Assembly: GCA_002731945.1 (NCBI GenBank)
Contig: PCCF01000024.1
Coordinates: forward strand, 1 to 42,609
Source: Rhodobiaceae bacterium
GTDB lineage: Bacteria; Pseudomonadota; Alphaproteobacteria; MED-G09
DNA: 42,609 bases
Direction: 5' to 3'
Position 1 is the stretch's first letter. Each line of letters starts with the position of its first letter. A program made the translations under genes and the position numbers. A model generated the notes under the pieces. It worked only from the letters and a program-made list of their open reading frames with translations. It did not search any database and had not been told where the DNA came from. Positions 16,467-22,239 of the stretch are shown here, piece after piece.

Positions 16467-16479
16467 GGAGAAGTATGTG
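16467..16479 (+). promoter_or_regulatory. glyS ribosome binding site with overlapping ATG-TGA and GTG start
   Basis: GGAG (16467-16470) sits 6 bases before GTG (16477-16479). ATG at 16475-16477 overlaps the GTG and runs directly into TGA, making a one-codon start-stop element in another frame at the initiation site. The GTG choice fits spacing and the protein's N-terminus; the alternative ATG at 16492 lacks a good site. Any regulatory effect is inference. Confidence 0.55.
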
Positions 16480-17835
16480 ACCGCAAACAACATGGAAGAA
16501 TTGGTAGCTCTTTGCAAAAGGAGGGGATTTATTTTTCAAACCAATGAAATTTATGGCGGTCTTCAAGGATTGTATGATTACGGACCGCTTGGCGTGGAAC
16601 TTAAGAACAATTTAAAAACGTCTTGGTGGAGCTCGATGGTATATGAAAGGGACGATGTGGAGGGTTTGGATTCTTCTATCCTGACTCATCCTGACGTTCT
16701 TAAATATTCAGGGCACGAAGAAACTTTTACCGATCCACTAGTAGATTGTAAAGAATGTAAGTCAAGATCGCGTGCGGATCACATTGAGGATGGAAAATGC
16801 CCCTCTTGTGGTTCGAAAGACTTAACAGAACCAAGACCATTTAATCTGATGTTTAAGACTAATATTGGGCCAATAGATGATGGATCGAGTTTCGCTTATT
16901 TAAGACCAGAAACAGCCCAGCAGATTTTTACAAATCTTAAAAATGTTATTGATACGACCTCAAGAACTTTACCTTTTGGTGTTGCGCAGATCGGAAAGGC
17001 ATTCCGAAACGAGATTACCCCAAGGAACTTTATTTTTAGGGTAAGAGAATTTGAACAGATGGAGCTTGAATTTTTTGTAGAACCGGGAACTGATGAAGAG
17101 TGGCATGATCAATGGGTGAAAGACAGAGTAAATTGGTGGGAAAAACAAGGGATCAAGAAAAAGAATTTAGAACTAGTTGATATTCCGAAGGAAGATCTAT
17201 CTCATTATTCAAAGAAAACTGTTGATATCATGTATAGATTTCCACATGGACTTGAAGAGTTAGAAGGAGTTGCTAATAGAACAGATTTTGACATCGGTTC
17301 GCATACCAAAAATCAAAAAGATTTTGATATAAAAGCGAAGGTAAAGCAGAATTCTGATTCCGTTATTAAGCTGGCGGTTCAGGATAAAATCAACAATACA
17401 TGGACAATACCTTACGTGATCGAACCCTCTGCCGGAGTGGATAGAGGGTTCTTGGCCGTTCTTAATGAGGCTTACAAGACAGAGGATCTGGGTGATGGAA
17501 AACAAAGGACAGTGCTTTCCTTAAAGCCACATCTATCTCCTATTAAGGCTTCGGTTATACCTCTTAAAAGAAATAATAAAGATCTTGTTTCAACTGCCTT
17601 GAAAATTAAATCGTCCTTACAAGCCTTAGGGATGGGAAGGATATTATTTGATAATTCTGGAAATATTGGAAAGAGTTATAGGAGACATGATGAAGTGGGG
17701 ACACCAATTTGCCTCACGGTTGATTTTGAGACTCTTGAAGATCAGAAAGTCACTGCAAGAGATAGGGATACGATGGCTCAAGAACGGGTATCTATTTTAG
17801 ATCTGCCCAAATATATCAAAAAAATACTATTATAA
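16477..17835 (+). CDS. glyS: Glycyl-tRNA synthetase, homodimeric (alpha2) type
   Basis: This class II synthetase charges tRNA-Gly. Motif 2 [21 protein letters not shown] (177-197) and motif 3 [10 protein letters not shown] mark the catalytic core, and [23 protein letters not shown]-like residues near the N-terminus are specific to the alpha2 GlyRS of eukaryotes, archaea and some bacteria. A zinc-ribbon-like C91-x2-C94 and C108-x2-C111 pair follows. The anticodon domain ends the 452 residues. Many alphaproteobacteria use the unrelated alpha2beta2 GlyQ/GlyS at the ppdK locus instead. The start is GTG 16477, set by GGAG at 16467-16470; an ATG two bases earlier is followed at once by TGA. The PPDK-like gene follows after 1 bp. 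Confidence 0.95.
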
Positions 17836-17836
17836 T

Positions 17837-19522
17837 ATGAGAAGGTGGATACATTCATTCGATAAGAAAATAGAGGATGTTGTTTCTGATCGAAGATTGA
17901 TCGGAAACAAAGGTTTGAATCTTTGCTTGATGAAACAAATGGGTCTACCAGTGCCGTCTGGTTTTGTTATTACTTCTGAGGCTTTTGATTATAGGGAAAA
18001 GAACAAAGCTTTGCCCAAAGAATTTTTCGATGAACTAAAGGATAATCTCTCCAATATAGAAAAAGCACTTAATCTAAAATTTGGAGATCCAAATAATCCT
18101 CTTATTTTATCAATTCGGTCCGGTTCACAATATTCCATGCCAGGCATGTTGGATACGATATTAAATATTGGTTTAAACAAAAAAGTTGTTGATAAAATTT
18201 CACAAAACGATCAATCGATTTTCGCTTTAGATACATGGAGAAGATTTTTGCAGATGTATTCCCATGTAGTTTTTAAAATTGAACACTATTTTTTCGATGA
18301 AATTTTAGAAAGCTATCTTTTGGGGGCAGGCTTATCTTCCACTAGTCAACTTGATGCGGAAGATTTTGAGGAGATCTGTGCCCAATATTTGTCATTAATA
18401 GAAGAAAAAAATGAAAAACCCTTTTCAGAAAATGTAAATGATCAATTAGTTAATGGCATCTATGCCGTTATGGATTCTTGGAAAAACGAAAGAGCAGTAG
18501 CCTTTAGGAAATTAAACAATATTCCTGATGAAGCAGGAATTGCAGTTAATATACAAAAGATGGTTTTTGGAAACCTCAATGAGAAAAGTGCCTCAGGGGT
18601 TTTGTTTTCAAGGAATCCTGATAATGGAGAGAAAGTGGTTAAGGGTGAATATATTTTATGTTCTCAAGGAGAAGATGTAGTTTCAGGATTTTTTACCCCA
18701 CAAAGTATTAATAAAAAATACAAAAACGAGTATTCGGATTCAGATACCTTAGAAGAGAAATTCCCTTCTATTTATGAAGAGCTATTAAATATTTCTATTA
18801 AGTTAGAAAATTATTTTCGTAATGTTCAGGATATAGAATTTACTATAGAATCTGGAAATCTCTGGATTCTTCAATCAAGAAATGCCGAAACCAATCTCGA
18901 AGCTTCCCTCAATATTACAAGAGATATGGTAAAAGAAGGGTTAATCGAAAAAAAACATGCCATTGCATCCACTGATCCTGACACCATTAAGAGATCTCTT
19001 ACACCTATCTTGGATGACAGCTTTAACAACCTTATTTTATCTTCCGGTCTACCCGCATCACCTGGTGTAATATCTGGAAAAATAGCCTTTGATTCAGAGG
19101 GAATTGATAGAATACAAGGTCAAGGTGGAAAAAGTATTTTGGTTCTGGTTGCAACTAACACTAAAGATATTAAAGCTATGCATAATACTGACGGTATACT
19201 TACATCACATGGTGGATTAACAAGCCATGCGGCAGTTGTAGCTCGTGGTTTAGGTAAGACCTGTATTACAGGTGCTCGGGAAATAATTGTAGATGTTGAA
19301 GAAAGAAAAGTTATTATTAACGAAGAAATTTTCCATGAGGACGACATATTAACTATTAACGGGCATACGGGGGATATTATAAAAGGTGTAGCCAGGACTA
19401 AATCACAAGATCCTCCTGATGCTCTTAAAGATATTCTGGGTTGGTGTGAAGAAATCGTTGAAGATAAACACGATGATCCCATAACTCTCCTTGAAAAAGC
19501 TAAAGCAATAATAAAGAATTAG
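17837..19522 (+). CDS. Truncated pyruvate phosphate dikinase homologue lacking the PEP/pyruvate-binding barrel
   Basis: Full PPDK (about 880 residues) interconverts pyruvate, ATP and Pi with PEP, AMP and PPi. This 561-residue protein contains the ATP-grasp domain (about 1-350: GNKGLNLCLMKQMGLPVPSGF, IRSGSQYSMPGMLDT, and the ATP-site E334, Q346, R348 in DIEFTIESGNLWILQSRN). It also has the swivelling phosphohistidine domain (about 400-520) with catalytic H464 in GGLTSHAAVVARGLGK, close to the family's usual position near 455. It then stops: LGWCEEIVEDKHDD (534-547) resembles the first turn of the C-terminal barrel, and nothing more follows. A convergent gene begins 6 bp downstream, so no remnant remains. 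It could make phosphohistidine but not bind pyruvate. The acceptor is unknown. It is translationally close to glyS (1 bp). Confidence 0.9.
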   Translation: MRRWIHSFDKKIEDVVSDRRLIGNKGLNLCLMKQMGLPVPSGFVITSEAFDYREKNKALPKEFFDELKDNLSNIEKALNLKFGDPNNPLILSIRSGSQYSMPGMLDTILNIGLNKKVVDKISQNDQSIFALDTWRRFLQMYSHVVFKIEHYFFDEILESYLLGAGLSSTSQLDAEDFEEICAQYLSLIEEKNEKPFSENVNDQLVNGIYAVMDSWKNERAVAFRKLNNIPDEAGIAVNIQKMVFGNLNEKSASGVLFSRNPDNGEKVVKGEYILCSQGEDVVSGFFTPQSINKKYKNEYSDSDTLEEKFPSIYEELLNISIKLENYFRNVQDIEFTIESGNLWILQSRNAETNLEASLNITRDMVKEGLIEKKHAIASTDPDTIKRSLTPILDDSFNNLILSSGLPASPGVISGKIAFDSEGIDRIQGQGGKSILVLVATNTKDIKAMHNTDGILTSHGGLTSHAAVVARGLGKTCITGAREIIVDVEERKVIINEEIFHEDDILTINGHTGDIIKGVARTKSQDPPDALKDILGWCEEIVEDKHDDPITLLEKAKAIIKN

Positions 19523-19528
19523 ATATAT

Positions 19529-20329
19529 TTACTCTATTGGCATTTTCATAGGACCCGTGTTCATTAGATCATCTCTGGTATTTATTGGATCTTTTACGAC
19601 TGACATTTCAAGTTCTTCCAGATCTTCCGGGACATACCAGTGTATGCGATTTTCATAGTAGGCTCGCAAAGCCGTTTTTGCGATTTCTCCTGCTGGAATT
19701 AACCTCCACATTCCTTCCTTGGGTAAGTTTATTCTTATTTCTTCTCCAATAAGAGGTGTATCAATAACTCCGGGCAAAATATCAGAAACTCTTGTATCAA
19801 ATCGTGAAAATTCAGCCGAAAGCGATTCTGTTAGTCCTTTAACCGCGTGTTTTGAGGCCGAATATACCGATGTCATAGGTAGACCTATAACTGCTGTCGA
19901 GGAAGCGGTATTCAAACATAAAGAATTTGGTGTATTTTTTAAAAGTTGAATAGCTGAGTAAATGCCATTAATTACACCTATGAAATTAATGTTTATAACC
20001 TTTAGATGGCTTTCGTATGGTTGATCTTCAAAAAATCCTCCCTCTGCAATGCCGGCATTATTAAACAGAATATCCAGCTTTCCATCGGTACACGATGAGA
20101 AATTTGCTACACATTTTTCGAAATCATTCTTGTTAGTCACATCTAGATTCTTATAAACAATTTCATTATCCCCTAGTTCATCAGAAAGTTTTTCTAAATT
20201 TTCTTCATTGATATCGTAGCAACCTACAAACCAACCTTCTTTTTTAAACAACTTAACCGTTTCTTTACCCATGCCGCTGGCGGCACCAGTTATAAATATT
20301 GATTTTTTATCCATTTTATTTCCAGTCAT
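19529..20329 (-). CDS. Short-chain dehydrogenase/reductase
   Basis: A classical SDR of 266 residues: NAD(P)-binding TGAASGMGKE near the N-terminus, NNAG in LDILFNNAGIAEGG, catalytic Ser in NTASSTAV and YSASK (Tyr and Lys). An acidic residue after the second strand (CYDINEENL) suggests NAD preference. The C-terminal end is unusual in reading LEELEMSVVKDPINTRDD. The substrate is unknown; the neighbours are nadC and the PPDK homologue. The start may be ATG 20329 or ATG 20314 (MDKKSIFITG), the second having GGA six bases upstream and looking more like the family. Confidence 0.88.
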   Translation of the reverse strand: MTGNKMDKKSIFITGAASGMGKETVKLFKKEGWFVGCYDINEENLEKLSDELGDNEIVYKNLDVTNKNDFEKCVANFSSCTDGKLDILFNNAGIAEGGFFEDQPYESHLKVININFIGVINGIYSAIQLLKNTPNSLCLNTASSTAVIGLPMTSVYSASKHAVKGLTESLSAEFSRFDTRVSDILPGVIDTPLIGEEIRINLPKEGMWRLIPAGEIAKTALRAYYENRIHWYVPEDLEELEMSVVKDPINTRDDLMNTGPMKMPIE

Positions 20330-20332
20330 TAT

Positions 20333-21184
20333 TCATTGCTTCAAATCTAGACCAAAATCAAGAGAAGGGGAAGAATGTGTTAGCCAGCCAGAAGAAATAA
20401 AATCCACTCCAGTCATAGCGATGTCTAAGACATTTTCGATATTAACGCTTCCTGATGCCTCTAACAGAACTTTATCACTGTTGATCTCAACCGCTTTTTT
20501 TAGTTCAGATGTACTAAAATTATCTAGCAAAATTATGTCAGGATTATTCTCAAGTGCTTCTTGAAATTGATCGATGTTGTCTACCTCCACCTCAATTTTT
20601 AGAGATTTATCAGAGCTCTTTTTTGCTTTTTTAATTGCTTCTTTAATAGATCCTGACAGGGCTATATGATTATCTTTAATAAGAATTCCATCAAAAAGGC
20701 CAAAACGATGGTTTTTTCCACCACCGGAAAGAACTGCAAATTTCTCAAAAACCCTAAGGTTAGGAGTTGTTTTACGAGTACACATGATTTTTGTATTGGT
20801 ATTTTTTATTTTCTTTGCCATTAACGAGGTTGCGCTTGCTATTCCTGACATATGAGATAAAAAATTAAGGGCAGTTCTTTCAGCGGTTAGTATTGATATT
20901 GAATTGCCTTGAATTTTTGCTAAAATATCATCAATCTTAACTTCATCGCCTTCTTTTTTGAATTTTTCAAAAGCAATTTTTTTGTCTACTAGACGGAACA
21001 CTGTTTCCGCTAAATATAGACCAGAAATTACACCCTCTTGTCTTGATTTAATTTCGAACTCAGATCTATTGGAATCATCCAGAATCAAATTGCTAGTGAT
21101 ATCACCTATGATACCGATATCTTCTTTGAGAGCTTCTTTTACTGTCCGTTCAGTTAAGGTTTTGTCCGGTAATTCGAAACTCAT
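20333..21184 (-). CDS. nadC: Nicotinate-nucleotide pyrophosphorylase (carboxylating)
   Basis: NadC (quinolinate phosphoribosyltransferase) turns quinolinate and PRPP into nicotinate mononucleotide in NAD synthesis. Typical motifs are AERTALNFLSHMSGIAS, CTRKTTPNLRVFEKFAVLSGGGKNHR (cut here into family-conserved parts CTRKTTP and GGGKNHR), DGILIKDNH, and DIILLDNFS. The C-terminal SGSVNIENVLDIAMTGVDFIS closes the barrel. It has 283 residues. The start overlaps the stop of nadA by 4 bp (ATGA), so the two are translationally coupled. nadB is not between or beside them. Confidence 0.96.
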   Translation of the reverse strand: MSFELPDKTLTERTVKEALKEDIGIIGDITSNLILDDSNRSEFEIKSRQEGVISGLYLAETVFRLVDKKIAFEKFKKEGDEVKIDDILAKIQGNSISILTAERTALNFLSHMSGIASATSLMAKKIKNTNTKIMCTRKTTPNLRVFEKFAVLSGGGKNHRFGLFDGILIKDNHIALSGSIKEAIKKAKKSSDKSLKIEVEVDNIDQFQEALENNPDIILLDNFSTSELKKAVEINSDKVLLEASGSVNIENVLDIAMTGVDFISSGWLTHSSPSLDFGLDLKQ

Positions 21185-22239
21185 AGATTTATCATGTTAT
21201 TAACGGATTGTAGGGCCCTTTCAGCTGTGTCTTTGTCTATATTTATTTCATATTGTTTATTCCAAAGAGATTCTAAGATATTTTCTAAAGTAATTTGTTT
21301 CATGTGAGGGCACAAATTACATGGCCTAACGAAGTCTACATTGGGGTTTTCTATAGAAACATTATCGCTCATTGAGCATTCTGTGACCATCAAAACCTTC
21401 TCGGGCTGATTTTTTCTAACCCAATTGATCATAGTGGAAGTTGATCCAGAAAAATCTGACTCCGCTATTACGCTTGGAGAGCATTCCGGATGAGCTATTA
21501 CCTGAACGCCCGGTTCATTTATTCTAAACTCACGAATTTCCTCTGGAGTGAATTCTTCATGCACCTCACATCTTCCTTTCCAAAGAATAATCTCTTTTTT
21601 GGTTTCTTTAGCTACGTTTAAAGCTAAATATTCATCAGGGATGAAAATTATTTTTTTTGAATCAAAGGAATTGACAATATCCGCGGCATTTGAGGATGTA
21701 CAACAGATGTCCGATTCAGCTTTAACCTCTGCAGAGGTATTCACATAGGTTACAACTGGTATACCGGGATTGTCTTCTTTTAACTTTCTAACATTCTTGC
21801 CTGTAATTGAGGAGGCAAGAGAACAGCCAGCTTGAAGGCTAGGAATTAAAACCATCTTGTCCATATTTAGTAATTTTGATGTTTCAGCCATAAAATGAAC
21901 ACCGCATTGTAAAATAATATTGCTTTCAACTTTAGAAGCTTCTTTAGCTAATTGTAATGAGTCTCCTCTTACATCGCTAATACAATGGAATATTTCAGGT
22001 GTTTGATAATTATGGGCAAGAATTGCTGCATTCATTTCCTTCTTAAGTATATTTATAGCTTCTATATATGGAGCGAAGAATGGCCACTCAATTTCAGGAA
22101 CGACTCTCGATACTTTCTCGTAGAGATGCCGAGATGTGCTCTCAAGTTCTGACGACCAACTGATATTCATTTTTTCTAAGACCTGATCGGCAGTTATACT
22201 AGTAGAATTGTTGTTTAATTTTTTATCCATATTTGCCAC
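21181..22239 (-). CDS. nadA: Quinolinate synthase
   Basis: NadA condenses iminoaspartate with dihydroxyacetone phosphate to quinolinate, with a 4Fe-4S cluster. The three cluster cysteines fit C139 (LQAGCSLAS), C253 (HPECSPSV) and C310 (CNLCPHMK), counting from GTG 22239. Other motifs are AHNYQTPEI, GDSLQLAKEA and FMAETSKLLN. The start could be GTG 22239 (352 residues) or ATG 22230 (349 residues); neither has a strong ribosome binding site. The iminoaspartate source (NadB or an aspartate dehydrogenase) is not in the window. Confidence 0.95.
   Translation of the reverse strand: MANMDKKLNNNSTSITADQVLEKMNISWSSELESTSRHLYEKVSRVVPEIEWPFFAPYIEAINILKKEMNAAILAHNYQTPEIFHCISDVRGDSLQLAKEASKVESNIILQCGVHFMAETSKLLNMDKMVLIPSLQAGCSLASSITGKNVRKLKEDNPGIPVVTYVNTSAEVKAESDICCTSSNAADIVNSFDSKKIIFIPDEYLALNVAKETKKEIILWKGRCEVHEEFTPEEIREFRINEPGVQVIAHPECSPSVIAESDFSGSTSTMINWVRKNQPEKVLMVTECSMSDNVSIENPNVDFVRPCNLCPHMKQITLENILESLWNKQYEINIDKDTAERALQSVNNMINL

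Follow-up and report, generated by a model that had tools for sequence, protein, structure and literature searches.

The short ppdK gene and its native locus

The window analysed here, a stretch of 42,609 nucleotides from a Rhodobiaceae bacterium (MED-G09 lineage, contig PCCF01000024.1), carries on its forward strand an open reading frame of 561 codons with no internal stop (17837-19522), which Pfam, TIGR01828, PDB matches and a structure model identify as a PPDK that lacks the PEP/pyruvate barrel (short PPDK). The ATP-grasp domain, delimited by the Pfam family PPDK_N (5.2e-45) and by invariant columns, takes up about residues 1-395 (17837-19021, forward strand) and is followed at about residues 396-517 (19022-19387, forward strand) by the phosphohistidine or swivel domain, where PEP-utilizers matches residues 432-512 (3.1e-17) and which matches the NMR domain 2fm4. 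Within the latter lie the catalytic His and an adjacent Thr, recognised from the sequence as T462-S463-H464 (19220-19228, forward strand), the Thr being the one that is phosphorylated in full PPDK by the PPDK regulatory protein, PDRP, and the protein closes with a linker helix containing W536 and a short C-terminal helix (19388-19519, forward strand), both placed by alignments and the model. In a Pfam scan of the 561 residues PEP-utilizers_C (PF02896) had no match. TIGR01828 aligns residues 3-540 with model positions 2-526 of 865 and gives a score of 566.5 bits, below its cut-off of 843.45, and the PDB matches to PPDK cover residues 1-540, with none beyond. Reading frame, Pfam and TIGR01828 thus bear out an earlier note on this DNA, which had described a PPDK of 561 residues cut down to its ATP-grasp and phosphohistidine domains.

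The C-terminal end of the short PPDK coincides with the point at which the barrel starts in full PPDK. The earlier note had taken the last residues for the very beginning of the barrel; the linker helix that precedes it does match, the tail aligning through this helix to about residue 540, but the first barrel strand (RANAET) is missing, and residues 541-561 have no reliable match to anything. A derivation of this tail from the last helix of full PPDK, suggested by a global alignment, gained no support from shuffles across the clade. The AlphaFold2 model (pLDDT 91, pTM 0.87) has as its closest PDB folds 1kbl (TM 0.89) and 1dik (TM 0.87), with an rmsd of 2.3-2.5, and positions the His domain as in the crystals of full PPDK, an arrangement that may be forced, because the alignment behind the model included full PPDKs.

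Upstream, at a distance of 1 bp, the gene for a single-chain glycyl-tRNA synthetase of the dimeric type ends (16477-17835, forward strand; TIGR00389/NF003211), so that the gap had been given correctly but the neighbour is not the beta subunit implied by its former name, glyS. Downstream, the convergent gene reported 6 bp from the stop indeed ends at 19529; it encodes an SDR-family oxidoreductase (19529-20329, reverse strand) and is followed by nadC (20333-21184, reverse strand), both assigned by profile match and synteny. Relatives with a full PPDK (L044, L047, L054, L055) have the gene order ispE-ispB-methyltransferase-glyQ-glyS-ppdK-nadC-nadB-nadA, in which the full-length ppdK is convergent to nadC and touches it, and PS1 genomes have the order ispE-ispB-methyltransferase-single-chain GlyRS-short ppdK-SDR-nadC-nadA; ispE, ispB, glyQ and nadB are presumptive names, taken from the sequences. 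The synteny shared with the full-PPDK relatives places the short ppdK at the native ppdK locus, and throughout the order the SDR gene occupies the place that the barrel-coding end of ppdK has in those relatives. Two further changes are seen at this locus in the PS1 order: glyQ-glyS, encoding an alpha2beta2 GlyRS, has been swapped in place for the single-chain enzyme, and nadB, present in the full-PPDK relatives, is missing between nadC and nadA (20333-22239 of the window).

Distribution, constraint and origin in the PS1/MED-G09 order

Our sample of the order comprised 18 genomes, all of one family, namely the window's own genome (1.37 Mb in 63 contigs) and 17 relatives from the PS1 clade, MED-G09 and marine single-cell genomes and MAGs labelled OCS116/Rhodobiaceae. 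The short form was found at every complete locus (13/13, the own genome and 12 others), always at the one syntenic site and with the same junction, while three further loci are cut by contig ends and no ppdK was seen in two genomes that are 55-61% complete. These proteins measure 555-564 aa and share 50-56% identity with the one encoded in the window; nearly all relatives outside the order have a full PPDK of 870-980 aa. The 561-residue form is therefore conserved among related genomes; with 13 assemblies in agreement it is not an assembly error, and the earlier view that the loss is complete holds.

Pairs of short ppdK genes with dS of about 0.2-1.3 gave dN/dS values of 0.07-0.20 (NG86), and a single, very close pair gave 0.38, so that values near 1, as would be expected of decay, were not seen; for the window's own gene, to which dS is saturated, constraint is inferred from conservation for that reason. 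In a tree built without Rv1127c (VadK, see below), the short forms make up one clade (100/100) inside the alphaproteobacterial full PPDKs and away from short paralogues, and the stem beneath this clade is long, at about 1.1 changes per site. Such a stem could be read as the trace of a decaying pseudogene or of an assembly artefact, but with 13 separate assemblies alike, dN/dS far below 1, intact motifs and an identical junction we regard this explanation as refuted. Because the AU test gave no rejection of a single clade comprising all short forms (p 0.18), an independent origin of the PS1 form rests on synteny; the order's short PPDK probably arose independently of VadK. We propose that, before the PS1/MED-G09 order diversified, its ancestor underwent the following events: the 3' third of ppdK, coding for the barrel, would have been lost, an SDR gene would have taken its place, and the remaining two-domain protein would have been kept and re-purposed without PEP formation.

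Barrel in trans and the active site

Of the two alternatives left by the earlier note, the first was that the barrel is encoded at another place and the second that the phosphoryl group goes to a different acceptor. In a profile search PF02896 was above its cut-off in none of the 17 relatives, an outcome for which genome incompleteness alone would have a chance of about 1e-14, and the weak matches in these genomes are to a 350-aa HpcH/CitE-like lyase. In the own genome (G000) the sole PF02896 protein is PTS enzyme I, complete and equipped with a His domain, and neither a stand-alone barrel nor a second full PPDK was found there. Two-component dikinases do exist, namely phenylphosphate synthase (PMC7500099) and HpeHI (PMC12167813), and a split PPDK that still makes PEP with a barrel encoded elsewhere would resemble them; these searches make it very improbable, and as far as the available genomes allow the first alternative can be excluded. 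The short PPDK thus has end-to-end alignment, fold and an orthologous locus in common with PPDK (EC 2.7.9.1), but differs from it in having no PEP/pyruvate barrel in cis or in trans.

Without a barrel, the short PPDK can neither synthesise nor use PEP. Nor is PPDK needed for PEP-pyruvate interconversion, given the presence of ATP-PEPCK in 15/18 genomes of the order (6/6 of the good ones) and of pyruvate kinase in 8/18, the own genome among them. The annotation of PPDK activity, and any models of PEP-pyruvate flux that use it, would be wrong for these plankton. Taken with its distribution, we regard the short PPDK as almost certainly a real, conserved protein that does not form PEP.

The residues of the ATP half-reactions have been kept. 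Across 41 aligned full and short proteins K25, R94, R136, D332, E334, Q346, R348, S463 and H464 are invariant, which agrees with the positions given earlier for E334, Q346, R348 and H464; T462, which stands two residues before the catalytic His in the motif GG.TSHAA, is nearly invariant in the whole set and invariant within the short forms. At 15 sites the short forms are fixed for a different residue from full PPDK. One of these is R437, an Arg in 26/26 of the full PPDKs aligned and a Leu in 12/12 short forms, and with this Arg gone the swivel domain may function differently from that of PPDK. Furthermore, the motif QTR.GKRT of full PPDK reads QSR.AE.N in the short form, with a slight likeness to PEPS.

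The regulator, a proposed acceptor and known precedents

New here is the retention, beside a barrel-less PPDK, of the regulator PDRP (PF03618), which is present in 15/18 genomes of the order, in 14 of them at full length and in the fifteenth as a short fragment; wherever no contig end cuts the gene, it is complete. It scores above the cut-off of NF003742 (PPDK/PEPS regulator), its motifs SDSTGET and GVSRTSKTPT are intact in the sequences read, and it is under purifying selection (dN 0.07 and dS 1.6 between G008 and G017). Going by their sequences, its neighbours are rho, maf, aroE, coaE and dnaQ. PDRP was not found in the own genome assembly, where contig C16 ends inside rho and maf is missing too; as the contig breaks at that very locus, the absence is most simply an assembly gap. 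To our knowledge, the only substrates known for PDRP are His-phosphorylated PPDK and PEPS, and the lack of PF02896 means that neither PEPS nor a full PPDK is present, which leaves the short PPDK as the only known kind of PDRP substrate. Phosphorylation of the His is a prerequisite in these substrates (PMC2817694). We consider it likely that the short PPDK is regulated by PDRP at T462, whose ADP-dependent phosphorylation would gate it. As a counterpoint, the cluster to which PDRP belongs, rho//PDRP-maf-aroE, is old, and some other role could explain its retention.

These genomes measure about 1.4 Mb, a size at which genes without a use should be strongly selected against, and the retention of PDRP in nearly all of them makes it most likely that the short PPDK has been re-purposed to pass phosphate elsewhere. 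A new acceptor is also the alternative that remains from the earlier note, where it had been put forward; purifying selection, fixation across the order, the intact active sites and PDRP all favour it, with the transfer itself being a prediction. ATP, probably together with Pi, would phosphorylate H464 by the ordinary first half-reactions of PPDK, and autophosphorylation at this residue is very probable. The swivel domain, which visits the barrel in full PPDK, would then, in the way suggested for VadK, hand the phosphoryl group to a separate acceptor or dock on it while phosphorylated; the most likely acceptor is a protein. For an acceptor in trans, probably a protein, we see roughly even chances; as a whole, the picture of an autophosphorylating His-phosphotransfer protein, gated by PDRP at T462 and acting on an acceptor in trans, is the one that we favour on the sequence evidence and hold to be reasonably probable. 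More tentatively, and with rather less than even confidence, the PDRP-gated PPDK remnant of the whole order might be an ATP-driven His-phosphotransfer regulator of some protein or pathway, i.e. a phosphorelay that senses energy charge, derives from an enzyme of glycolysis and evolved independently of VadK. Since a dedicated regulator has been kept, its target and the acceptor can be sought directly.

Against the favoured picture, no dedicated partner gene was seen beside the short ppdK at the 13 loci, the gene just before it coding for a tRNA synthetase. This also bears on the possibility of a two-subunit small-molecule kinase, in which the short PPDK would supply the ATP/His part and a non-homologous protein would bind the metabolite acceptor. 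Broadly this is how HpeHI and phenylphosphate synthase operate, and in two larger alphaproteobacteria (L119, L120) other short PPDKs have a conserved 660-aa protein as their partner, but the lack of any paired gene at the PS1 loci, together with T462 and PDRP, which suggest regulation by energy charge and not a catabolic kinase, makes it an unlikely explanation. The short PPDK might instead be a sensor or scaffold in which phosphorylation of H464 or T462 alters binding partners without transfer, PDRP and PPDK together reading ADP/ATP. The binding-based model for VadK and methylcitrate synthase (PMC13400623), the retention of PDRP and the loss of R437 all speak for this; however, residues of the ATP half-reaction that are so strictly conserved would then serve autophosphorylation alone, and we think such a role improbable. 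Replacement of PTS enzyme I, with HPr or NPr phosphorylated from ATP, might be suspected from the homologous His domains of enzyme I and PPDK and from the loss of enzyme I in 17/17 relatives, but HPr is lost in the same 17 and the own genome has both proteins; with HPr missing, this explanation is refuted for the order and overall extremely unlikely. HPr and the PTS were likewise ruled out as acceptor, HPr being absent in 17/18 genomes. As a side observation, the own genome has kept EIIA-man in addition to enzyme I and HPr (L001:1378-3153, L116:1483-2179).

Compared with known systems, a His-phosphotransfer role finds its closest precedent in VadK, which is much closer than rifampin phosphotransferase. 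Against NF004531, a model of short PPDKs of which we take Rv1127c (VadK) to be a member, the PS1 protein scores 394 bits, below the cut-off of 456. VadK (2026), long annotated as PPDK, is a barrel-less histidine kinase of an actinobacterial pathogen, Mycobacterium tuberculosis, that autophosphorylates His422 with Mg-ATP and binds methylcitrate synthase and dehydratase, both of which it is proposed to modulate (PMC13400623). The two proteins are alike in being PPDKs reduced to the ATP-grasp and phosphohistidine domains, with the catalytic His kept, in genomes without the barrel. They differ in that VadK adjoins and binds methylcitrate-cycle enzymes, whereas PrpD (PF03972) occurs in 0/18 genomes of the order, which speaks against a VadK-like methylcitrate partner, and in that the PS1 gene lies at the native alphaproteobacterial ppdK locus and PDRP has been retained. 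Our literature search found no truncated or split PPDK besides VadK, and the PS1 short PPDK is probably an independent case, one that is fixed throughout an order of small, free-living marine bacteria.

That dikinase chemistry can be directed to other acceptors is illustrated by rifampin phosphotransferase (PMC4844700) and by HpeHI (PMC12167813). The analogy drawn earlier with the former is only partial: its ATP-grasp and swivel His domains do serve an acceptor other than pyruvate (PMC4844700), but between them it carries, in the same chain, a rifampin-binding domain, and in the PS1 protein a domain for binding an acceptor is absent (NF041857 score 55.6 against 999 bits). HpeHI and phenylphosphate synthase also employ dikinase chemistry and divide its functions among chains, with dedicated paired genes (PMC12167813, PMC7500099), whereas in PS1 the ATP and His parts form one chain and there is no pair.

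Short PPDKs of other kinds were seen outside the order. Those of the two larger alphaproteobacteria mentioned above (L119:2969-6563, L120:4971-8578) measure 537-543 aa, occur in genomes that also have a full PPDK and are encoded directly behind the gene for a conserved protein of 663-665 aa whose C-terminal region resembles PhoU_div (DUF47), possibly as a two-gene phosphotransfer pair. Another, of 575 aa and above the NF004531 cut-off (L121:2781-10029), follows a 717-aa protein that could be assigned to no known family and precedes genes for a biotin carrier, a biotin carboxylase and a carboxyltransferase, a cluster that looks like one for ATP-driven substrate activation and carboxylation.
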